Assembly: GCA_011048835.1 (NCBI GenBank)
Contig: DSDF01000123.1
Location: 1-41,261, forward strand
Direction of reading: 5' to 3'
DNA length: 41,261 bases
DNA from: Methanoculleus sp.
GTDB lineage: Archaea > Halobacteriota > Methanomicrobia > Methanomicrobiales > Methanomicrobiaceae
Shown in pieces: positions 16,727 through 41,261 of this stretch (position 1 is its first letter; every line of letters begins with the position of its first letter). The notes below the pieces were generated by a model. The model searched no databases, was not told where the DNA came from, and was given only the letters and a program-made list of their open reading frames with translations. A program made the translations under genes and the position numbers.

Positions 16727-18322
16727 TTATCTGAGGGCCTCGCCCGCCTCGCCGTCGCCGGTGGTCTCACCGGTCTCTGCACCGGTCCGGTCGAGGGCCG
16801 TGCCCACGAGCAGGACGACGGTGGAGAGGGGCAGGGCGATGATCAGGGGGTCGACCGCCTGCCAGAAACTGGAGAGGAGTGCCGGTACCCCGAAGATCGC
16901 CTGGGATACGCCGAGTACCGAGGACTCTGCCTTATGCACGAACGCTGTCCACATAAACCACGCAATGGTGCCGGCGACCAGGCTGGCGATGGCGGCGTTC
17001 CTGGAGGGGGTGCGTGCGTAGAGGGCGGCCGCGTAGGCGGGGAGGAACGCAGCTGCGCAGAGGCCCATGAACATCGCTGTCGCACGGGCGATGATGCTCA
17101 CCGGCATGAGGTAGGCGAGCCCCACGCTCGCCACGATCATGAGCACGCAGCCGGTCTGGCTTGCCCGCAGCGAGGGAACGTTGCCCCTGATGCTCCGCCA
17201 GATATCGTGGCCGAGGGCGGTGCCCATGGTGTGGATGAGCGAGGAGAGCGTGGACATGGCCGCGGCGAGGAGGGCGAGCATGAACACGATGATGAAGATG
17301 TCGGGCATGGAGGCGTTGATGTACGCGGGGATGATGGCATCGACGTTGCCGCCCGCCACCTCGAGGGCGATCGAGCCGGTGTTCTGGACGAAGTAGACGT
17401 TGGTGAGGGCTCCCACGGTGAAGGCAACCCCGGTCATCATGAGGATGAACGGTCCGCCGATGAATATCGCACGGTGAATGGCCCGGCTGTCTTTTACGGT
17501 CATGAACCGCACCACGAGCTGGGGCTGGGCCAGCACCCCGATCCCCACGCCGAGCACGATGGTGGTCACGAGTGTCAGCCATATGGGGCTTCCCAGCACC
17601 GGCATGGACGTCCACCCGGTATGGCCCGCGGCGGCCATCGCCTCGGGCACCATGGACGTGAGGCCGTCAAGGGCGGCATGCGCTTCCATCACGCCGCCGA
17701 GGTGGACATAGGTGAGCACCAGGAGGATTGTCATGCCGACGAGCATGATGGCCCCCTGCATGGCATCCGTGTACATCACGGCGATCAGGCCGCCGAGCAC
17801 GACGTAGAGGGCAACAATGGCTGCAAACCCGAGGAGCGCCGAATCGTAGGGGATGGCGAGCGTCGTCTCGATGAACCGCGCCCCGCCGATGAGGATGGCC
17901 GCGGTATACAGGGGCATGGCGACGACGATCACCAGGCCGGCGGCATACCGCATGAACTTCGATGCGTAGCATTTTCCCAGCAGATCGGGGAAGGTTACCG
18001 CATGCAGGCGCTGGCCTATCTCCCTGGTCTTTTTGCCGAAGATGACGAACGCCAGAAAGATGCCGACCCCGATGTTGAGCACGGTCAGCCAGATCAGCCC
18101 CATGCCCAGCTGGGCGGCGACGCCGCCGAACCCGACGATGGCCGAGGTGCTGATGAAGGTGGCCCCGTAGGAGAGCGCCAGGATGGCCGGATGGATGCGC
18201 CGTCCGGCGACCAGGTAGTCCTCGTGCTCCTTCGTATGCCGGTACCCGAGCCAGCCGAGGGTGATGATGGCTGCAAGGTAGAGGAGCGTGACCGCGGCGA
18301 GGGTGAGGGTATTAACTGCCAT
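16727..18322 (-). CDS. Sodium:solute symporter (SSS family)
   Basis: The product of about 531 residues has 13 or so membrane helices and typical SSS features: an N-terminal helix, DYLVAGRRIHP, SYGATFISTSAIVGFGG (Na+ site region) and ALLAAAMSTLSSLIHTMGTALGHDI (helix 8 Na+ site with Ser/Thr pairs). The substrate is not predictable; relatives transport organic acids, proline or pantothenate. The cytoplasmic C-tail is rich in Gly, Glu and Thr. The ATG at 18322 lies inside the end of a 41-residue membrane protein gene, overlapping it by 11 nt, which indicates translational coupling. Confidence 0.93.
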   Translation of the reverse strand: MAVNTLTLAAVTLLYLAAIITLGWLGYRHTKEHEDYLVAGRRIHPAILALSYGATFISTSAIVGFGGVAAQLGMGLIWLTVLNIGVGIFLAFVIFGKKTREIGQRLHAVTFPDLLGKCYASKFMRYAAGLVIVVAMPLYTAAILIGGARFIETTLAIPYDSALLGFAAIVALYVVLGGLIAVMYTDAMQGAIMLVGMTILLVLTYVHLGGVMEAHAALDGLTSMVPEAMAAAGHTGWTSMPVLGSPIWLTLVTTIVLGVGIGVLAQPQLVVRFMTVKDSRAIHRAIFIGGPFILMMTGVAFTVGALTNVYFVQNTGSIALEVAGGNVDAIIPAYINASMPDIFIIVFMLALLAAAMSTLSSLIHTMGTALGHDIWRSIRGNVPSLRASQTGCVLMIVASVGLAYLMPVSIIARATAMFMGLCAAAFLPAYAAALYARTPSRNAAIASLVAGTIAWFMWTAFVHKAESSVLGVSQAIFGVPALLSSFWQAVDPLIIALPLSTVVLLVGTALDRTGAETGETTGDGEAGEALR

Positions 18323-18437
18323 GCATCTCATCTCCTCCGCTGTTCCAGTTCAGCAGACCATACACCATACACGCGAGCGTAAAGCCGAGTGCGAGCAGAT
18401 ACGCACACCAGATTTGTGGATCGTTAATTCCAAACAT
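18312..18437 (-). CDS. Symporter small accessory membrane protein (41 residues)
   Basis: This tiny gene reads MFGINDPQIWCAYLLALG, then a hydrophobic helix (FTLACMVYGLLNW) and a short hydrophilic tail. The pattern MFG-x2-DP, one membrane helix and a YG-x2-NW end is that of the small companion proteins encoded directly upstream of many SSS-family symporters in methanogens. The ATG at 18437 lies 8 nt behind GGAGGT; another in-frame ATG is at 18443. The gene overlaps the symporter start by 11 nt. The companion probably assembles with the transporter as a stoichiometric partner, but its role has not been shown here. Confidence 0.8.
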   Translation of the reverse strand: MFGINDPQIWCAYLLALGFTLACMVYGLLNWNSGGDEMHGS

Positions 18438-18609
18438 GAACATTACCTCCCGGTATGTGACAACCGGATCCAATGCACGGGAACTCAGCGCAGAGCCGGT
18501 TCCCTACCTAAAGAAGAACGCAAAAAAGCCAATTCCGCATGCAACGATGCGGTCCGATGGGCAGATGCGGGCATTCATGCGCGAATACCAACTATGCTGT
18601 GCGCCTCCC

Positions 18610-18620
18610 GCCTATTTAAT
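18610..18620 (+). promoter_or_regulatory. TATA box of the GATE-domain gene
   Basis: CCTATTTAATAC lies about 85-95 nt before the probable start of the gene at 18705. It is the best TBP-binding sequence in the gap from 18444 to 18695, which otherwise shows no gene. Confidence 0.4.
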
Positions 18621-18704
18621 ACTACGCCCGGTACGTTCATGGGGGCCGGAGGAGAGTGTACTGCGCGGGAACGGGCATGACAGCGGAAGGAGGGGATGTT
18701 CCGG

Positions 18705-19655
18705 GTGAATGATGTGCTGGCCGGTGCTGCGGATCTCGCCTTCTCGCTGCTGGCGCAATCGGTGCCCGCTATCGTGATCGGCGTGCTGATCGCCGAAGTG
18801 TTCGTCGCCCTGCATATCACGGAGGCGATCGCTCGCCTGGTGCGGCCCGTCACCCGGTTCGCCCACCTCTGCGACGAGGCCGGGGCATCGTTCATGCTGG
18901 CTTTCATCTCGCCCAATGCGGCCAATGCGATGCTCGTGGACTTCTACCAGAAGGACACCATCGACCGCACCGAGCTGATTCTCGCCTCGCTGTTGAACTC
19001 GTTTCCTGCAATCGTCATGCACTGGCGCGTTCTTTTGCCCGTGTATATTCCGCTGCTCGGGACCGCCGGGCTGATCTACTTTCTCCTGCTCACCGCGGTG
19101 GGTTTTTGCAAGTCCGGGCTCATCATGCTTGTTGCGCGTCTCCTCCTCCCCGGCCGGTCGCACTGCGATCCGGCGGTGCCCCAGGCGCGGCGGATCCCGC
19201 TCTCCAGGCTTCCGCGGGAGGTGTTCTGTGCGGCGAAAGCGCCCCTCCGCCGTATCCTTGTCATCACTGTCCCCACGATCCTGCTCGTCGCCCTGCTCAT
19301 CGAACTGGGCGTTTTCGATAGGCTCGCCGACGTACTCGAGGGCGCCACCCGGCTCTTTCCCGTGCCGGCGGAAGGCCTTGGCATCATCGCCGCCCAGTTT
19401 GCCAACTTCGTGGCGGCGGCAAGCGTCGCCTCGCCGCTCTATTACAGCGGGGCGATTTCGACCCGCGATCTGGTGATCACCCTGCTGGCGGGCAACGTGC
19501 TCTCGAGCGTCACCCGGAGCTTCCGCTGGCTCGGCTCCTATTACATCGCCATCTTCGGGCCGCGGCTGGGCACCGAGATCATGGTGATCTCGACGGCGAT
19601 GCGAAACGGGCTGATGGTGATCCTGATCTTCGCCCTTGCCCGGATCTGGCAGTGA
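18705..19655 (+). CDS. Nucleoside-recognition (GATE) domain membrane protein
   Basis: The 316-residue integral membrane protein has about eight hydrophobic segments in two halves. One centres on SFMLAFISPNAANAMLVDFY and the other on ANFVAAASVASPLYYSGAIS. Both halves resemble the GATE/nucleoside-recognition domain of spore maturation and transporter-like proteins, and they probably arose by duplication. The start is uncertain: ATG 18696 touches GGAGGGG, whereas GTG 18705 has the proper spacing, so I use the latter. Substrate and function are unknown. Confidence 0.82.
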   Translation: MNDVLAGAADLAFSLLAQSVPAIVIGVLIAEVFVALHITEAIARLVRPVTRFAHLCDEAGASFMLAFISPNAANAMLVDFYQKDTIDRTELILASLLNSFPAIVMHWRVLLPVYIPLLGTAGLIYFLLLTAVGFCKSGLIMLVARLLLPGRSHCDPAVPQARRIPLSRLPREVFCAAKAPLRRILVITVPTILLVALLIELGVFDRLADVLEGATRLFPVPAEGLGIIAAQFANFVAAASVASPLYYSGAISTRDLVITLLAGNVLSSVTRSFRWLGSYYIAIFGPRLGTEIMVISTAMRNGLMVILIFALARIWQ

Positions 19656-32292: not shown

Positions 32293-33513
32293 TCAGCGGA
32301 TCAGCCGTCGTTGCGCAAGAGAGAAGGCCATCTTCATCAGGGGCACCTTGACCTTCATGGCCCTTCCTTCGAAGGTGCGGGAGACATCGGCGAGGAGATC
32401 CCGGATGGGCAGGTGCTGGGGACAGGCCTTCTCGCATTTGCCGCAGGAGGTGCACAGCCCGGCAAAGGCCTCGGCGCCGAGGATCCCCCCGAGCCGGCCC
32501 AGGTACATGACCCTGGTCTCGAGTTTGTTGTCGAACATGTGGTAGTTGTTGTAATAGCTGAAGCATTCCGGGATGTTGACGCCGGAAGGGCAGGGCATGC
32601 AGTAGTTGCAGCCCGTGCAGTCGACCTGCATCAAAGCCCGGTAGGCCTCTTTCACCCGGCCGATCAGGGCCCGCTCTTCCGGGTCGAGCGAATGCGGGAG
32701 GGCGGCATCGGCGATGGCCAGGTTCTCGTCGATGTGCGCTTCCTCGTTCATCCCGGAGAGGACCACCGTCACCTCCGGGTGGTCCCAGATCCAGCGCAGT
32801 GCCCATGCGGCGGGAGAGCGCTGCACCGCTGCCGAGGCATAGATCTCCCGCACGGGGGCGGGGATGCTGCTCGCGAGGCGCCCGCCCCGGAGGGGCTCCA
32901 TGACGATGATTGCAAGCCCGCGTTCGGCTGCGTACAGGAGTCCTTCCGTGCCGGCCTGGGTGTGCTCGTCGAGGATGTTGTACTGGATCTGGCAGAACTC
33001 CCAGGGGTAGGCGTCGACGATCTCCTGAAACGTCGCGTGATCCCCGTGGAAGGAGAACCCGGCGCGGGTGATCCTCCCGTCTGCCTTTGCCCGGTCGAGA
33101 AACTCCAGCACCCCCAGGTCGTTCATCTTCGCCCAGTTGGTGCCGTTGAGGCTGTGGAGGAGATAGTAATCGATATGGCCGGTGCGCAGGCGCTCCCGCT
33201 GGGCGTCGAGGATGCGGTCCATGTCCTCAGCAGTGTGCACCTGCCAGGGCGGAAGTTTGGTGGCGAGGAACACCTTCTCCCGGTAGCCGCCGGCCAGCGC
33301 CTGCCCGAGAAACGGTTCGCTCTCCCCGTTATGGTAGGGCACCGCGGTGTCGATGTAGTTGACCCCGCGGTCGATGGCGGAGCGCACCTGCAGGGTTGCC
33401 CGCTCAACATCGATCTTCCCACCCTTTTTTGGCAGGCGCATGCAGCCGAATCCGAGAATGGAGAGGCAATCGCCGGTTTTGGGGACGGTCCGGTAACGCA
33501 TGTGCAGCACCAT
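32293..33513 (-). CDS. Aldo/keto reductase with C-terminal 4Fe-4S domain
   Basis: The 406-residue protein has an aldo/keto reductase barrel (LGFGCMRLPKKGGK, YIDTAVPYHNGESEPFLGQAL, then KLPPW, DYYLLHSLNG). Its C-terminus is ferredoxin-like with CTGCNYCMPCPSGVNIPECF and CTSCGKCEKACPQHLPIR, typical of the AKR-ferredoxin fusion proteins of anaerobes. It likely passes electrons to an aldehyde or ketone from ferredoxin rather than plain NADPH. The Tyr of the AKR catalytic tetrad is present (near AVPYHNG). Starts at 33513 or 33501 are possible. It is first in the TetR-ABC run. Confidence 0.92.
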   Translation of the reverse strand: MVLHMRYRTVPKTGDCLSILGFGCMRLPKKGGKIDVERATLQVRSAIDRGVNYIDTAVPYHNGESEPFLGQALAGGYREKVFLATKLPPWQVHTAEDMDRILDAQRERLRTGHIDYYLLHSLNGTNWAKMNDLGVLEFLDRAKADGRITRAGFSFHGDHATFQEIVDAYPWEFCQIQYNILDEHTQAGTEGLLYAAERGLAIIVMEPLRGGRLASSIPAPVREIYASAAVQRSPAAWALRWIWDHPEVTVVLSGMNEEAHIDENLAIADAALPHSLDPEERALIGRVKEAYRALMQVDCTGCNYCMPCPSGVNIPECFSYYNNYHMFDNKLETRVMYLGRLGGILGAEAFAGLCTSCGKCEKACPQHLPIRDLLADVSRTFEGRAMKVKVPLMKMAFSLAQRRLIR

Positions 33514-33518
33514 GTCGA

Positions 33519-33534
33519 TTGACTAATCAGTCTG
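33519..33534 (-). promoter_or_regulatory. Operator-like palindrome next to the aldo/keto reductase start
   Basis: TTGACTAATCAGTCTG is 13/16 identical to the perfect palindrome TTGACTAATTAGTCAA. It begins 6 nt upstream of the ATG at 33513 and overlaps the transcription start predicted from the TATA box at 33547-33556, so a bound repressor would block initiation. A sister site lies at 33929-33944. Confidence 0.6.
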
Positions 33535-33546
33535 TTATGAGGACTC

Positions 33547-33556
33547 CTATAAATCG
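33547..33556 (-). promoter_or_regulatory. TATA box of the aldo/keto reductase operon
   Basis: Minus-strand reading GATTTATAGG, about 35-40 nt upstream of the ATG at 33513, places the transcription start inside the palindrome. Confidence 0.5.
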
Positions 33557-34214
33557 TTGCCGTTCCGGCGCCGGAGGGCTGACCCCTGGCCGGGGATGGG
33601 GGCTATCCCGTTCTCTGCAGGAGGAAGGCGCAATGGTGGGTATTTGCCGGGTAACGACCCGCATCAGTGAAAACCATTGTTGAGAGAAGCCGGACGGACG
33701 AGCTCGGCCCGGCTTTCAGTGGGGGATGGGATGGTCATCAGCAGCGCTGCCTTCAATTGCGACGCCCACGGGAGATACGGCAGTCCTTACCGCCACAGCC
33801 CGTTTTTTCCGGCGCGCAGGGCCTGGTGCCCTCTCATCGCAGCACAACCGCGTACCCTCCAGTCCCACCGGGGGCGGCATGCGGTTTGCGGGCACTGAAC
33901 GGTCCTGAACGGAATAAAGGGGCGAAATTGGGCTAATTAGTCAAATTTAGCTTAAATTATGGCCCAGAATTTGAAATAAGGACGAAATACCGGTTTTTTA
34001 GGGGTCCCATGCGCATTGCATGGCAGATCTGCATGGCAATAGAACCGGCTTCTGCGTGGCAAAATACTTTTTTATGCGCCATGAGAGTGGTTTTTGTGCC
34101 TGTACAGGATCCATATGCCTGAGCTGGATCGGACACGCGCATCGTCAGGGAAGTTCTCTTGTATGCGCTGTCCTGGAAAAATCGCGACAATGCGTGCGGG
34201 CACGGGTGGTGACG
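33557..34214. other. Long intergenic region without a supported gene
   Basis: Several plus-strand frames of 60-90 codons exist (for example around 33730-33930), but none has a recognisable motif, good codon use or ribosome site. The region holds the second operator-like palindrome (33929-33944), an AT-rich stretch to about 33960, a TATA-like run (34066-34076) and short perfect palindromes GCAGATCTGC (34023-34032) and CCTGTACAGG (34099-34108). The base composition turns AT-rich from 33905. Confidence 0.5.
33929..33944. promoter_or_regulatory. Second operator-like palindrome
   Basis: TGGGCTAATTAGTCAA is 14/16 identical to the perfect palindrome TTGACTAATTAGTCAA, and its right half is the exact complement of the left half of the site at 33519-33534. 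It sits upstream of an AT-rich run (TTTAGCTTAAATTATG) that could be a plus-strand promoter. Confidence 0.55.
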
Positions 34215-34589
34215 ATGATGAATGAGACTGAATCCCTGGATATGCTGCTGGGGGAACTCGAGGACGCGGGGACCGGCAGGCGATGGTACGTGGCGATGAC
34301 GCTTTCCAGGATGGGCGCTCCCGCTCTGGATCCCCTGATCGATCTGGTGCGGAATGGTTCTGTCGCGAAAGCCGCGGCAATGTGGGCAATTTCTGAAATC
34401 GGAGATAAAAAAGCAGTCCCCCTTCTCGTGGATGAGCTGCATTCCGGGGAGGATGCATTCCACAGGGCGATAGCGGCAAGCGCCCTGATGAAGATCGACG
34501 ATCCCGAGGGCGTGGCCCAGGTGAAGCTGGCGCTCTCCGAGGGAAACGAGATGTTTGCCGAACTGTTCAGGGAGGTGCACAACAGGTAG
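34215..34589 (+). CDS. Cytoplasmic HEAT-repeat protein
   Basis: The product of about 124 residues is composed of HEAT/PBS-lyase repeats (ALDPLIDLVRNGS, AAAMWAISEIGDKKAVPLLVDEL, RAIAASALMKIDDPEGVAQVKLAL). It resembles the exported protein at 4127-4720 but lacks a leader peptide. Tandem ATGs at 34215 and 34218 follow GGTGGTGA; a longer upstream frame is not motif-bearing. Repeat proteins of this type serve as protein-binding platforms. The neighbouring PAS regulator is on the same strand, 176 nt downstream, but evidence of a shared transcript is lacking. Confidence 0.75.
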   Translation: MMNETESLDMLLGELEDAGTGRRWYVAMTLSRMGAPALDPLIDLVRNGSVAKAAAMWAISEIGDKKAVPLLVDELHSGEDAFHRAIAASALMKIDDPEGVAQVKLALSEGNEMFAELFREVHNR

Positions 34590-34721
34590 CGACGCAAAGT
34601 TCACATACGGTGCAACACACGTTTATTTCGACACTATTTTGGAGGAGCGGGAATATCCCCCCCTCTGCCATGTGCGGCGGGACGGAACGCCGATCAAACC
34701 GCGTGCTCTCGAATTCCGATA

Positions 34722-34733
34722 GACTTTTATTCA
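34722..34733 (+). promoter_or_regulatory. TATA-like element of the PAS regulator gene
   Basis: GACTTTTATTCA precedes the GGAGGTG ribosome site (34757-34763) by about 25 nt, fitting a short-leader archaeal transcript. Confidence 0.45.
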
Positions 34734-34764
34734 ATAATATTTGTATTGAAACAGATGGAGGTGT

Positions 34765-35826
34765 GTGTTTGAACAGGTGCAGCGAGGTGAGCTGGTGGCG
34801 GATCCATCCGGGAATGCCCGGATTCTTGAGCGTCTGAGCAATGTGGTGCGGGCTCATCCCGGCGGGATCTCGATATCGAAACTCTCCCGCGAGACCGGCA
34901 TCAACCGCAATTCAGTCGCGAAATACCTGGACATCATGCTTGCCACCGGCCAGGTGGGGATGAAGAGCGTCGGGGCGGCCAAAGTCTTTTTTCATGCGGA
35001 GAAAATGCACGTTTCGCACATTGTCGATAATTTTCCGGGTTGTATCATCGTCATCGACGCCTCCGGGAAGGTCGTGCTCGCAAACAGGGCGTGCACCGCA
35101 TTTTTCGGTCTCTCGAAAGGAGAACTGACAGGCACGCTCCTGACGGAGGCCCGGCTCCCGGGAATGCCACGGGCATTCTTCGAGGCGGTGCACGCGGGCA
35201 TGGCGGGAACGCGCCGTGTGGATGAGTTTGTGGTGGAGCGGAACGGGGAAACAGCATATCTCACCGGACACTTCATTCCCACTGCGATTGACGCGGGGAA
35301 GAACGGGCTGTTCCTCCTTCTTAAGGACATCACCGGGGAAAGACGATCGGAGATCCTTCTCGAAGAGAGCGAAAACAAGTTCCGCACCCTGTTCAACAAC
35401 TCCTGTGCCATGATCTTCGTTCACGAAATCTCGAAAGAAGGCGTTCCGGGGCCGTTTCTCGAGGTCAATTCCTTTGCGTGCGAGAAACTGGGTTTTTCCC
35501 GTGATGAGCTGCTCTCCATGACCGTGGTCGACCTGCTCAGGGCCCCCGCCCGGATGACCGAGGGGTCGACCGCCCTCGAGCAGCTGCAGCGGGGGGAATG
35601 TTTGCGGATGGAGAGAGACCTGTTCGAGAAACAAGGCACAAAGATCCCGGTGGAGATCCACTCCCACCTCATCGACTTTGAGGGCAGGACGGTGGTCCTC
35701 TCCGTCCTCCTCGATCGCACCTATCAGGTGAAATACGAAATACGAGGAGAAAATCCTGGAAAACCTCAAGAACCTCGAATTTCTCTCGCAGATGGCGCTC
35801 TCGTTTCTCGATTACCCGGAGGATGA
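34765..35826 (+). CDS. HTH-PAS-PAS sensory regulator, N-terminal half (frameshifted)
   Basis: The 353-residue reading contains an N-terminal winged HTH (about 20-70: RILERLSNVVRAHPGGISISKLSRETGINRNSVAKYLDIMLATG). Two PAS domains follow, one from HIVDNFPGCIIVIDASGKVV to LLLKDITGER (about 85-193) and one from NKFRTLFNNSCAMIFVHEI to about 310. The last 25 or so residues (after QVKYE) are unrelated, because the frame is shifted by a 7-bp duplication at 35730-35743. The correct continuation is the next reading frame. The start is uncertain: GTG 34765 lies too close to GGAGGTG, and GTG 34777 is better spaced. Confidence 0.8.
   Translation: MFEQVQRGELVADPSGNARILERLSNVVRAHPGGISISKLSRETGINRNSVAKYLDIMLATGQVGMKSVGAAKVFFHAEKMHVSHIVDNFPGCIIVIDASGKVVLANRACTAFFGLSKGELTGTLLTEARLPGMPRAFFEAVHAGMAGTRRVDEFVVERNGETAYLTGHFIPTAIDAGKNGLFLLLKDITGERRSEILLEESENKFRTLFNNSCAMIFVHEISKEGVPGPFLEVNSFACEKLGFSRDELLSMTVVDLLRAPARMTEGSTALEQLQRGECLRMERDLFEKQGTKIPVEIHSHLIDFEGRTVVLSVLLDRTYQVKYEIRGENPGKPQEPRISLADGALVSRLPGG
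35730..35743 (+). repeat. 7-bp tandem duplication GAAATAC x2 causing a frameshift
   Basis: The sequence GAAATACGAAATAC is two adjacent copies of GAAATAC. Removing one copy converts the broken reading into a continuous one: QVKYE joins directly to EKILENLKNLEFLSQ and then MALSFLDYPEDED. The reading shifts by one base because 7 is not a multiple of 3. It is the only interruption visible between the two halves. Confidence 0.85.
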
Positions 35827-36808
35827 AGATCCCTATGCATCCGTCGCAGATCAGCTGGCTGGCATGTGCCCCGGGGCGCTCGTGATGATCAATACGGTTG
35901 ATGAACGCTCGGGGAAATGGCAGAACAAAGCGTTGAGAGGGCTGAAACGGCGCGAGCCCTTTGTCACGCGGTTGCTCACCTTCCTCGCGCACGCGGAATG
36001 CGGGGCGTTCGAGAAAAGCAATGCCGCACTCATGCGGTCCGGAACGCTCATGCATTTTACATCCACATCGTTTCTGGAGTCGTTTACCAATGCGGAACAG
36101 CGTGAACTGATTGAATTGATGGTCGAGGAAGGGTACGGAGAGTGCTATGCCATGGCGCTCCTCAGGGATGTCGAGCAGGTGGGGATCGTGGCGATCGCTG
36201 TCCCGCGTGGCTACACGCTTGAACGCCCGGAACTCGTGGAGGCGTTCCTCAACCAGGCGGCGGTGGCGCTCGGGAAGCGCAATGCGGAGGTGCGCCTGAA
36301 GAAGGCGAACCAGGCCCTGATGCAGAAACTGGTGGATCATGAGCGGCAGCTGATGAAGTATCGGGAAATCCTGAATATCTCCGCGATTGAGAGCCGGGAG
36401 GTTGAAAAATCGCTCCATAATCAGACCGAATTAACGCGACGGTGCCTCGAGCTCATGCATATCGCCATGGTGACGGTGCAGGAGGACGGGACGATCGTGG
36501 CGGCGAATTCCTGTGCGTGCGATCTGCTCGAGACCTCCCCGTCTGCGGTGATCGGGAAGAACTGGTTCGAAGACTGCCTCTCCGGGGGCATGACCGGCAA
36601 TGCGCAGAAAATGCACCAGAGAATCATACAGAATCCCCGGTACAGTGGTATTCTCAAAAACCCGGTGCAATGCGAAAAATCGCGAACAAAGGAAATGGTG
36701 TGGATGGTGCGGGAGGGATGGGACTTCTCGAACGGCAAAAAGCGTATCCTCTGGCTCGGCGAAGCGATGCCCGGCCTGCATCTACTGGAACTCTCCCGGC
36801 TGGGCTGA
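35792..36808 (+). CDS. GAF-like and PAS C-terminal half of the split regulator
   Basis: This 338-residue reading continues the protein of 34765-35826. A GAF-like sensor domain (SVADQLAGMCPGALVMINTVDE to EQVGIVAIAVPRG, about 15-160) is followed by a helical linker (LKKANQALMQKLVDHERQLMKYREIL). A final PAS domain reads RRCLELMHIAMVTVQEDGTIVAANSCACDLLE. No histidine kinase or GGDEF-type output domain is present, so the HTH at the N-terminus is the only obvious output. In-frame coding starts further upstream, around 35744 (EKILENLKNLEFLSQ); the ATG at 35792 is simply the first Met. Confidence 0.75.
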   Translation: MALSFLDYPEDEDPYASVADQLAGMCPGALVMINTVDERSGKWQNKALRGLKRREPFVTRLLTFLAHAECGAFEKSNAALMRSGTLMHFTSTSFLESFTNAEQRELIELMVEEGYGECYAMALLRDVEQVGIVAIAVPRGYTLERPELVEAFLNQAAVALGKRNAEVRLKKANQALMQKLVDHERQLMKYREILNISAIESREVEKSLHNQTELTRRCLELMHIAMVTVQEDGTIVAANSCACDLLETSPSAVIGKNWFEDCLSGGMTGNAQKMHQRIIQNPRYSGILKNPVQCEKSRTKEMVWMVREGWDFSNGKKRILWLGEAMPGLHLLELSRLG

Positions 36809-36816
36809 TGCACCGC

Positions 36817-38691
36817 TCATGGGAGTTGTGAAGCTGTTTCGAGCGTGAAGGCAATCGAGAGCAGATCCCCGGGATCGCTGCCGATACCGACATGCAGGTC
36901 GCTTCCGTACCGCTGCAGGATGAGGCGGGCTATCTCGAATTCCGGGTGCCGGGAGAGCCACTGGTCACTGATATCAATCGTCTGTGAGGGCGTGGATTCC
37001 TGCACCGAAAGTGTGATGCGGACGCCTGCGGTGCCTTCTTTCTCATCGATCGCGATGCTGATAGCACCGTCATCGTGTATCCTGGTACAGAACTGGATCA
37101 GGGTGAACACGGCGAGTCCCAGCAGTTCGTCGGCGTACACCATGACGCTGACCCCCGTGAAGCGCACGGAGGCGTGGTGGTCGCGGAGTGCGTCTTCAAT
37201 AGCGTCGTGGAGATCGACCGGGTGCAGGCGGGGGGACTCGCCGAACATCGATTCCCTGCGCAGTGCATAGATGGTCGCGATGGTCTTCTCCGTGCGGCGG
37301 GCGGTGGCGAGCGCGGCATCGAGAAACGACGTGTCTGCGCTTTCGAGCGAGGCTCTCTGGAGCGTGAGATAGGATTGTATCTCGGCGCTTGCGTTTCTCG
37401 TCGAGTACTTCAGGAGGTCGAGATAGCGGTTGAGGTCGACGTTGGTCGCCTGCAACCTCGCGGTCCGTTCGTTGATGATCTGCTCGAGGTGGTCGCTGTA
37501 CTCCCCGACTGCGGCGAGGTTGTCCTTCAGGCGCGCCACCAGGTACGCAATATTGCGGGAAAGTGCCCTGATCTCGCCGTTCCATGGCGTCCTGATGGGA
37601 TGGTCGAGATCGCCGTCCGCAATGGTTTTTACGTCTTCGGCGAGCATGGTGACCGGCCTGGAGACGTACCGGGAGGCACCGAAGGCGACAACCCCGCCGA
37701 GCAGGATGGCGACGAGTGCAATGATGACGTGGTAGAGCAGTTGTTCGGCAATGGCGAGGTTCAGGGCATGTTGTGAATAGGTGATCTGCGCCACGAGGTC
37801 CATGTGGGCGGACGATACACACTCGCTGTCCGGCATGTCGAGATAGATGTACCGGATCTGGGTTTCATCCGCAGGAACGGAGATTTCCTGCGGCATTTCT
37901 GTCGAAAACGCCCGGTTCACCAGTGCCACGACGTCGGCCCCCGGGACGTAGTCGGAGGGAAAGAACCCGGAGGTGGCGTTGCACCGGTAGCGGGGCATGC
38001 GGTCAAAGAGGCGGATCTCGACGATATCCGGGTTGATGTGCATGCACTGCTGCAATGCCATCTGGTACGAGAACTCCTCCCGGATCGCATGGAACTCGGG
38101 GGACGCAAGACTCATTTGCACGACAGAGCGGTGATCGGGCATGGGGAGATAGGCAAACTTTCGCAGGACCCCCTGCGTGCCGAACGTGCTCCTGTCTGCG
38201 GAGAACGCGTCGCCGAGCCGGATATCCGTGTACCGAGCGTAGTACTCCGGCCACCGCTTGAAATCAACGCCAATATCATTTTGGTAGGTGGAATACTCGA
38301 TGACGCCGGTCTCGTTGATCACGTAGAATTCTATCGTCCCGTCAAATGATCCCTGCAGTCTCGCTTGCAGGGCGGTATAATCGACCTTCCCGGGGTCGTT
38401 GTCCGCATCGACATAGGCCCGGCGTGCTTCTTCCAGGGCCTCCCGCATGGCAGCGTCCGGCAACGCGTCGAACAGTGCCAGCCCCTTGTCCACGAGCACC
38501 AGGGAAGAGGCGAGCCCCTCTTCGCTCTGGCGCTGGGATGCCTGGAAATTGGAGCTGAGATCCTCCTGCGTCGCCAGAAACGAAACCGCGGAAAATATCC
38601 CGATGATAGCGATGAAGAGGACGAGGATGACCGCCATGATATGGCGGGTGAAGGTATCATTCTCGATAGAGAGGCGTATCGATCCTTTCAT
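36817..38691 (-). CDS. Cache-HAMP membrane sensor with degenerate histidine-kinase-like region
   Basis: The 624-residue protein has a first membrane helix (about 18-40) and an extracellular Cache-type sensor (about 45-315, with Cys and aromatic residues). A second helix (IIALVAILLGGVVAFGASRYV, about 318-342) leads into a HAMP domain (RPVTMLAEDVKTIADGDLDHPIR). A coiled-coil follows, then a dimerisation-like helix (LLKYSTRNASAEIQSYLTLQ) without the phospho-accepting His. The last 180 residues have the helical/beta profile of an ATPase domain but no N- or G-box motifs. I read it as a signal-transmitting sensor without kinase activity. It is convergent with the split regulator, 8 nt apart. Confidence 0.8.
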   Translation of the reverse strand: MKGSIRLSIENDTFTRHIMAVILVLFIAIIGIFSAVSFLATQEDLSSNFQASQRQSEEGLASSLVLVDKGLALFDALPDAAMREALEEARRAYVDADNDPGKVDYTALQARLQGSFDGTIEFYVINETGVIEYSTYQNDIGVDFKRWPEYYARYTDIRLGDAFSADRSTFGTQGVLRKFAYLPMPDHRSVVQMSLASPEFHAIREEFSYQMALQQCMHINPDIVEIRLFDRMPRYRCNATSGFFPSDYVPGADVVALVNRAFSTEMPQEISVPADETQIRYIYLDMPDSECVSSAHMDLVAQITYSQHALNLAIAEQLLYHVIIALVAILLGGVVAFGASRYVSRPVTMLAEDVKTIADGDLDHPIRTPWNGEIRALSRNIAYLVARLKDNLAAVGEYSDHLEQIINERTARLQATNVDLNRYLDLLKYSTRNASAEIQSYLTLQRASLESADTSFLDAALATARRTEKTIATIYALRRESMFGESPRLHPVDLHDAIEDALRDHHASVRFTGVSVMVYADELLGLAVFTLIQFCTRIHDDGAISIAIDEKEGTAGVRITLSVQESTPSQTIDISDQWLSRHPEFEIARLILQRYGSDLHVGIGSDPGDLLSIAFTLETASQLP

Positions 38692-38919
38692 GGATGATCA
38701 AATGTGGGCATTTTTCGTAACCTCTCATTGCGAGCCTTCCACGTTAAACGTTACCATTTCATTTTCTGGAAAAAAGGCACCTGTGGCTAGGGCATTCCCC
38801 GTGGAACGCGGTTCCATGTGGCGGCAGGCTGCATGCTGGTTCGCCGTCGAGGGAGAGGCGGATCCCTCCGGGGCACCGGGCCGGCCGCGTGGGGGCATGC
38901 TCCCGGAGTCGGCGGGTTG
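38692..38919. other. Gap between the sensor gene and the transporter ATPase
   Basis: No gene is seen. It contains a hairpin TGGAAC-GCG-GTTCCA (38802-38816). An A-run at 38771-38776 would be T6 in a minus-strand transcript, consistent with transcript end formation after the ABC transporter operon. The AT-rich left part (CGTTAAACGTTACC, 38748-38761) may carry the promoter of the sensor gene. Confidence 0.45.
38802..38816 (-). terminator. Possible terminator hairpin of the ABC transporter operon
   Basis: Six perfect base pairs close a 3-nt loop; on the minus strand a T-run follows about 25 nt further on. It lies about 100 nt beyond the ATPase stop. Confidence 0.35.
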
Positions 38920-39969
38920 TTATCCGGGACATGCGTGGACTGCCGATGCCTTGAAGGTGAGATAGACCGTTTCTCCTTCGGCCAGTTCCAGTCGCCGGAT
39001 GCTCTGGCGTGTCAGGGCGCAGACGAACGGGACCCCTGCATCCACCACGATCCGTGAGAACATGCCGTTCTGCTGGATTTCTGTCACCGTGCCCCGGAAG
39101 GTGTTGATTGCGCTGGACTCGAACGGTTCGCGGGAGACGATCACCTCTTCCGGCCGGATACCGACGTAGACGTCGCCCTCGATCCCGGCGACGGTCTGGA
39201 TGCTGATGGGGCCGACATCGATCAGCGCCGCGCCATCCCTGAGCCGTGACCTGCCGCAAAAGACGTTCTCCATGCCGGTGAACGACGCGACGAACTCGGT
39301 TTCGGGGCGCTGGAAGATCTCCTCGGGCGTACCCACCTGCACGATGGTGCCGTTCTGCATGATCGCCACCCGGTCCGCGAGGGCAAAGATATCCTCGAAG
39401 TGATGGGTGATGTGGATAATCGTCGTCTTCATCATCCGGTGAATGGTCCTCAGCTCCCGGCGCAGCCGTTCCCTTGTGGTGACATCGAGCGCCGAGAGCG
39501 GTTCGTCCAGAAGCAGGACCCGCGGGCCGAGCGCGAGCGCGCGTGCGATCGCCGCCCGCTGCTGCTCGCCGCCGGAGAGGGTCTCGGGGTACCGCTCCCG
39601 CAGGTGCCAGATGCCGAGCATCTCCGCGGTTTGTCTGACCCTGTTCCGGATCGTCACGGGATCAATGTGCCGCTGCCGGAGTCCGAACCCGATATTCTCC
39701 TCGATGGTCAGGTGGGGAAAGAGCATGTAGACCTGGTAGACCATCCCGATGCCGCGGTGCTTCGGGTCGGTACGGGTGATATCGCTGCCGTGCAGGGCGA
39801 TGGTCCCGCCATCCGGGGAGTATATGCCCGCGATCGTCTCGAGGAGGATGGTCTTTCCGGCACCGGTCGGTCCCAGGATAATGAAGTACTCCCCCTCTTC
39901 GATATGCAGGTTCACCCCTTTGAGCGAGAAACTGCCGAGGGTTTTGGTGAGTCCAGTGATCCGTAGCAT
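38920..39969 (-). CDS. Molybdate/tungstate-type ABC transporter ATPase
   Basis: The 349-residue ATPase belongs to the CUT1/Mod-type importer class. Walker A is GPTGAGKT (33-40), the Q-loop MVYQVYMLFPHLT, the signature LSGGEQQRAAIARAL, Walker B VLLLDEPLSALD and the switch His lies in HITHHFEDI. A C-terminal TOBE-like regulatory domain follows (about 245-345, ending AVHACPG). It powers uptake of molybdate, tungstate or a similar oxyanion. Together with the permease and binding protein encoded upstream it forms a complete ModABC/WtpABC-type system. The start lies 9 nt after the permease stop. Confidence 0.88.
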   Translation of the reverse strand: MLRITGLTKTLGSFSLKGVNLHIEEGEYFIILGPTGAGKTILLETIAGIYSPDGGTIALHGSDITRTDPKHRGIGMVYQVYMLFPHLTIEENIGFGLRQRHIDPVTIRNRVRQTAEMLGIWHLRERYPETLSGGEQQRAAIARALALGPRVLLLDEPLSALDVTTRERLRRELRTIHRMMKTTIIHITHHFEDIFALADRVAIMQNGTIVQVGTPEEIFQRPETEFVASFTGMENVFCGRSRLRDGAALIDVGPISIQTVAGIEGDVYVGIRPEEVIVSREPFESSAINTFRGTVTEIQQNGMFSRIVVDAGVPFVCALTRQSIRRLELAEGETVYLTFKASAVHACPG

Positions 39970-39978
39970 CCGTGCCTC

Positions 39979-40791
39979 CTAGATGACCTGTGTCCCGTCG
40001 CCGTACTGTTCGAAGATCAGGAGCGAGACGAGCGCGATGCCGATGAGCACGATCGATGCCGCGATGGCCTCGTTCAGGTCTCCGGTGGAGATGTTCAGGT
40101 AGACGGCGATGGGGAGGGTTTCGGTCTTCATGGCCGTGGCCCCTGCGAGCAGGAGCACCGCCCCGAACTCACCGATGGATTTCGACCAGGTAATGACCAG
40201 CCCCGCGATCAGCCCTTTTGCCGCGAGCGGAAGGGTGACCTGCCTGAATGCGCTCCACTCGGAGCACCCCAGGGTCCGTGCGACGTACTCGTAGCGGGGA
40301 TTGATTACCGCAGAGGCAGCGCGGGTGATCCGTATCATGTAGGGAACGTTCACGAAGAACTGCGCCACGATGATGGCGGTCACGTTGAAGACGATGTCGA
40401 TGCCCGAACCCCTCAGCACGGTCCCGATAAGGGACGGGCCGAAAAAGATCAGCAGGGCGACGCCCGCCACGAGGGGCGGGAGGGAGAGGGGGAGATTCAT
40501 GATGACATTGGCGAGCGATTTGCCGGGAAACGAGAACCGGGTCATCGCGTAGGCGACAGGGATGGCGATAATGATGCAGAGCGCGGTGGAGACTGCCGAG
40601 GTGACAAGGGAGAGCTGGATCGCAAAGAGGATCTCCGGAGACGTGATGCTGGCAAGGAGCTCTCGTTGTGACGGATAGAGGACGAGCCCCCCGATGACGA
40701 TGGTCATGAAAATAACCAGGACGGCAGAAATCGCAAGAAAACTCGCCGAAAAGAGGCTTGATCGCGAACGTCTCTGCATCAGTCTCTCCAT
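39979..40791 (-). CDS. Molybdate/tungstate-type ABC transporter permease
   Basis: The 270-residue inner-membrane permease has about six helices in the BPD_transp_1 fold and the EAA loop (about 175-195) with EYVARTLGCSEWSAFRQVTLPLA, the site that docks the ATPase. The SKSIGEFGAVLLLAG stretch after the loop is typical of ModB/WtpB and sulfate permeases. The oxyanion preference (molybdate, tungstate, sulfate) cannot be decided here. It belongs to the binding-protein-permease-ATPase operon. Confidence 0.88.
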   Translation of the reverse strand: MERLMQRRSRSSLFSASFLAISAVLVIFMTIVIGGLVLYPSQRELLASITSPEILFAIQLSLVTSAVSTALCIIIAIPVAYAMTRFSFPGKSLANVIMNLPLSLPPLVAGVALLIFFGPSLIGTVLRGSGIDIVFNVTAIIVAQFFVNVPYMIRITRAASAVINPRYEYVARTLGCSEWSAFRQVTLPLAAKGLIAGLVITWSKSIGEFGAVLLLAGATAMKTETLPIAVYLNISTGDLNEAIAASIVLIGIALVSLLIFEQYGDGTQVI

Positions 40792-40843
40792 ATGCCTTAT
40801 CCTGAAGCAATAGAGTCAAATGCGCAATCCGGCGCCCACGGCC

Positions 40844-40857
40844 GGGGAGATCTCCCC
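40844..40857 (-). promoter_or_regulatory. Palindromic hairpin between binding-protein and permease genes
   Basis: GGGGAGATCTCCCC is a perfect 14-bp palindrome in the 131-nt gap between the binding-protein stop (40923) and the permease start (40791), flanked by CC/GG bases that could extend the stem. Such intercistronic hairpins often protect the upstream message and let the binding protein be made in excess. That role is inferred. Confidence 0.45.
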
Positions 40858-40922
40858 CGGGCGGGAGGGAGATGCAGCGGGGAGCACCCCGAGAGCCCTG
40901 CAGCCATACCGTTCATTGCCGA

Positions 40923-41261
40923 TCAGGGCTCGATCCCTGCATACGTCGGGTCCGGGTAGGTGGGGAAGCCGTGGTTGGCGAATATCGCCTTTCCCTCGTC
41001 GGAGGAGACGAAATCAACATACTGCCGGGCCAGGTCCGGTTGCTTCGTGAAGGCGGTCGTGCCGATAGGAACGATCAGCGCCATGTTGTCTTTCAGCGGG
41101 AGCCGGACGGCCTCCATCGTTTCGAGGTTCACCGTATCGATGGTGATGAGCGTGGCATCGACGGTGCCCATGTTCATGGCCACCACGAGTTCGTTGATTG
41201 TGGGTGCCCGGAGCACGACGTGCTCCTCGACTGCGTCGGCGATGCCGTACTTCCTGAAGAG
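40923..41261 (-). CDS. Oxyanion ABC transporter substrate-binding protein (N-terminus outside window)
   Basis: Only the C-terminal 112 residues are inside the window. They show the end of a type II periplasmic-binding-protein fold: FRKYGIADAVEEHVVLRAPT, then DATLITIDTVN, then IVPIGTTAF, and the closing QYVDFVSSDEGKAIFANHGF as in ModA proteins. The signal peptide and first lobe lie beyond the right edge. Its position just before the permease and ATPase supports a molybdate/tungstate-like uptake system. The protein would sit outside the cytoplasmic membrane, probably lipid-anchored, but that part is not visible. Confidence 0.85.
   Translation of the reverse strand, partial: LFRKYGIADAVEEHVVLRAPTINELVVAMNMGTVDATLITIDTVNLETMEAVRLPLKDNMALIVPIGTTAFTKQPDLARQYVDFVSSDEGKAIFANHGFPTYPDPTYAGIEP

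Follow-up and report, generated by a model that had tools for sequence, protein, structure and literature searches.

A 7-bp tandem duplication and the split reading frame of a PAS- and GAF-containing regulator in Methanoculleus sp.

Comparison with relatives supports the view that two adjacent open reading frames of Methanoculleus sp. represent one regulator gene that was probably broken by a lineage-specific 7-bp duplication. The tandem GAAATAC-GAAATAC was read directly from the sequence of the window, i.e. the whole stretch of 41,261 nt that was analysed, and lies exactly at 35730-35743, where the original prediction had placed it; the period-7 match extends over 9 nt, giving a repeat tract of 16 nt at 35730-35745. 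In the upstream frame the product runs to RTYQVKYE and continues with a 28-residue nonsense tail as far as a TGA at 35824-35826, while in the frame shifted by one the regulator reads on as EKILENLKNLEFLSQMALSFLDYP to a stop at 36806-36808. Deletion of one GAAATAC unit gave a single frame of 678 codons, running from the GTG at 34765 through to the 36806-36808 stop, as expected from the proposal that removing one copy fuses the halves. The observation is thus real, and the locus is an ordinary frameshifted regulator gene; the hypothesis that it acts as a switch is unsupported. The features concerned are as follows.

34765 to 35826, forward strand: upstream open reading frame of 353 aa (wHTH-PAS-PAS), native as far as the doublet; start codon provisional
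35730 to 35743, forward strand: doublet of GAAATAC, net insertion of +7 (+1 in frame), opposite a 7-nt gap in the relative's orthologue L032
35744 to 36808, forward strand: downstream half of the regulator gene, open, with linker helix, GAF-like domain, coiled coil and PAS3
36817 to 38691, reverse strand: convergent gene for a HAMP-containing membrane sensor, intact, 85% identical to the relative's orthologue

Intact orthologues and domain order

The nearest relative is the Methanomicrobiaceae MAG M17C-73-02 (G002; JARVGI010000008.1), in which the syntenic regulator gene, L032, carries one GAAATAC in a single uninterrupted frame. Nucleotide alignment to L032 left a clean 7-nt gap opposite the doublet, so that the insertion is absent from the relative, and the joined product matched L032 at 67% identity along 672 residues, the alignment passing through the junction without a change of frame. 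A relative with one copy and a full-length protein had been named beforehand as the check on a recent duplication, and M17C-73-02 has both. Uninterrupted orthologues of 662-675 codons were also found in G005, G011 and G039 (31-32% identity), and a more distant one in G003 (24%); the split arrangement was found in none of the relatives examined. The earlier claim of one gene broken by a duplication is borne out by full-length genes in relatives and a single-copy site in the nearest of them. Frameshifts were also surveyed by comparison with 551 kb of G002, although shadow ORFs and gene-boundary effects blurred the picture: 222 of the 258 orthologue-bearing genes kept a single frame in alignments spanning more than 90% of the gene, and among 11 candidates for a change of frame the regulator was the clearest tandem duplication. 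Literature searches found no published report of the regulator locus.

The domain order of the regulator is wHTH-PAS-PAS-GAF-coil-PAS. Pfam detected PAS in both halves and GAF in two members of A1, with weak, sub-threshold matches to HTH models at the N-terminus. In the intact relative, modelled with AlphaFold2 at a mean pLDDT of 74, the elements follow in this order.

N-terminal to PAS1: winged-helix-like N-terminus
Residues about 88-183: PAS1
Residues about 211-312: PAS2
Residues 314-341: linker helix
Residues about 349-472: GAF-like alpha/beta domain
Residues 480-555: long helix
Residues 559-659: PAS3

The break maps to residues 316-322 of the relative, inside the linker helix between PAS2 and GAF. 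The three Methanomicrobiales orthologues of 662-675 codons share the same domain order, whereas the Methanoculleus sp. copy loses the frame beyond PAS2; Pfam, AlphaFold2 and the relatives agree with the earlier reading that the two halves together match intact methanogen regulators of the HTH-PAS-PAS-GAF-PAS kind. The wHTH suggests that the regulator is a soluble DNA-binding sensor.

The doublet itself is not unusual. In 1.325 Mb of the Methanoculleus sp. genome 91 doublets of 7 nt were counted, about one per 14.6 kb, and the density in G002 was similar (46 in 0.55 Mb); the window held 4 against 3.1 expected under a Markov model of the window, and 2 period-7 runs of at least 9 against 0.34 expected. 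Random 7-nt deletions were simulated and scored as joining open frames when the joined frame reached at least 250 aa with a gain of at least 100 aa, which occurred in 126 of 3000 trials (4.2%). Because doublets are common and about 4% of random deletions join frames, the doublet and the frame join together are weak evidence on their own, and the case rests on homology. A genome-wide scan for frames joined by repeat collapse was also tried (the scans covered 1.33 Mb of 1.99 Mb); it was not specific, since it returned hundreds of matches in this GC-rich genome, and alignment to the relative was used instead.

Origin of the break and competing explanations

The reading that we favour, at a probability of roughly 0.72, is that a young 7-bp tandem duplication frameshifted the wHTH-PAS-PAS-GAF-coil-PAS regulator, with loss or alteration of its function to be expected. 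The ancestral sequence was likely GTGAAATACGAGGAG, and replication slippage across GA-AATAC-GA, in which two GA dinucleotides stand seven bases apart, may have copied GAAATAC once; judged from the sequence, slippage would be the simplest origin. The added seven bases would shift the frame so that N-terminal translation stops 28 codons past the doublet, and the predicted product would keep wHTH-PAS-PAS and lose the GAF-PAS sensor half (GAF and PAS3), by which the function of the regulator is probably lost or altered. The break appears young because both halves are still open and alignable without a further stop, and a recent duplication is inferred. The dN/dS ratios against the relative, 0.24 for the N half and 0.48 for the C half, are averaged over the whole divergence and are blind to recent relaxation. 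Reversion could occur at a low rate, as for any short tandem duplication, but nothing points to an evolved switch.

Antonov et al. (2013, PMC3711429) attributed singleton frameshifted genes to indel mutations or to errors of sequencing. The locus resembles these singleton frameshifted genes or pseudogenes in its occurrence in one genome, its net +1 indel, its lack of a conserved recoding motif and its intact relatives, but the change here is a 7-bp tandem duplication instead of 1 nt. It looks like an ordinary one-off gene break.

The strongest competitor, though an unlikely one, is an error of assembly or consensus, in which the organism really carries a single copy and an intact regulator gene. 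The assembly is a draft of 139 contigs (96% complete), some other aligned genes differ from the relative by apparent 1-nt frame shifts, and both halves of the regulator are otherwise undamaged, all of which would fit such an error. A perfect 7-nt duplication, however, is atypical of base-calling or homopolymer errors. Furthermore, the tandem doublets alignable to the relative numbered about 1600, including 24 of period 7, and just two of the 1600 were one-unit insertions, namely the GAAATAC doublet and an 8-bp duplication at C7:17995, so that the assembly is not prone to tandem insertions. A real allele is favoured over an artefact, since a 7-bp duplication would be unusual as a sequencing error.

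It is highly improbable that wHTH-PAS-PAS and GAF-PAS are maintained as two functional proteins in a stable split through translational re-initiation. The break does fall between domains, the reading frames overlap by 35 nt, and the family includes shorter wHTH-PAS-PAS proteins (L008, 421 aa; L009, 416 aa), but the truncated regulator is not equivalent to the latter because their C-terminus differs. The N product would carry the 28-aa nonsense tail, and no relative with a split was found. The first in-frame ATG of the downstream half, at 35792, has no obvious Shine-Dalgarno sequence, which makes efficient re-initiation unlikely, and a start there would omit a large part of the linker helix; GAGGAG precedes an in-frame CTG at 35756. 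The pattern of a translationally coupled pair was not found, the ATG at 35792 lying 32 nt before the stop at 35824 and the split being absent from the relatives examined.

Equally improbable is a phase-variable switch, in which slippage of the copy number turns the regulator on and off. As in phase variation by slipped-strand mispairing of simple sequence repeats, gain or loss of a tandem unit would shift the frame: since 7 is not divisible by 3, every such step does so, and the gene would be regained on return to a single copy. Unlike those systems, the doublet has two copies only, the minimum, is lineage-specific, and faces a single-copy site without a multi-copy repeat tract in G002. Moreover, tracts of three copies were absent from the 1.33 Mb of genome scanned, and the genome showed no enrichment of unit-length insertions. 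A call of phase variation requires characteristic repeats and a family history or precedent (Antonov et al., PMC3711429), and neither was found at the regulator. The original prediction's phase-variable allele is thereby disfavoured, and a reversible on/off switch kept as a mixed population in the methanogen is less credible still. Programmed frameshifting was rejected because the recoding is not conserved in the intact relative, where the frame is unshifted.

Neighbourhood and decay of sensory genes

The switch had also been proposed to adjoin a convergent sensor gene; this neighbour is real, but nothing ties the sensor to switching. Adjoining the sensor at 38920-41216 is an ABC transporter (ATPase, permease and a substrate-binding protein truncated where the contig ends) that resembles molybdate/tungstate importers. 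The regulator is far more diverged between Methanoculleus sp. and G002 than its neighbours, its dS being 0.82 in the N half and 0.44 in the C half, compared with 0.18-0.24 for the sensor and transporter genes. From 33511 to 36300, which covers an intergenic region, a HEAT-repeat gene and the regulator, identity to the relative was 47-87% in most 150-nt bins but rose to 87-93% at 34261-34560, and both flanks stood at about 90%; recombinational replacement or fast divergence is possible for this segment, as judged from the alignment. In a third genus member, G001 (84% complete), the flanking oxidoreductase was matched, and no good syntenic DNA match was found to the regulator, the sensor or the adjacent transporter ATPase and permease. 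The block 33578-40800 may thus be variable within the genus, given a G001 assembly of 84% completeness; the raised dS and the lack of a match in this incomplete genome point to an evolutionarily variable regulator region.

The 8-bp tandem duplication at C7:17995, two copies of TATGGTCT, lies within L086 (G000 C7, about 17126-18797), a decayed sensor-kinase pseudogene with about 1 kb missing just upstream, whose orthologue in G002 C21 is an intact REC-PAS-GAF-kinase of 785 aa (response regulator, PAS, GAF and kinase). That the only other one-unit insertion falls in a sensor-kinase gene which has itself decayed suggests an ordinary loss of sensory genes, rather than a class of switches, in a lineage whose assembly is somewhat smaller than that of the relative (1.99 Mb against 2.2 Mb).

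If a mixed copy number were true, it would represent an unusual reversible frame switching of an archaeal regulator, and nothing here points to a mixture. In conclusion, the main value of the finding is annotation hygiene, in that the two open reading frames should be annotated as a single frameshifted regulator gene.
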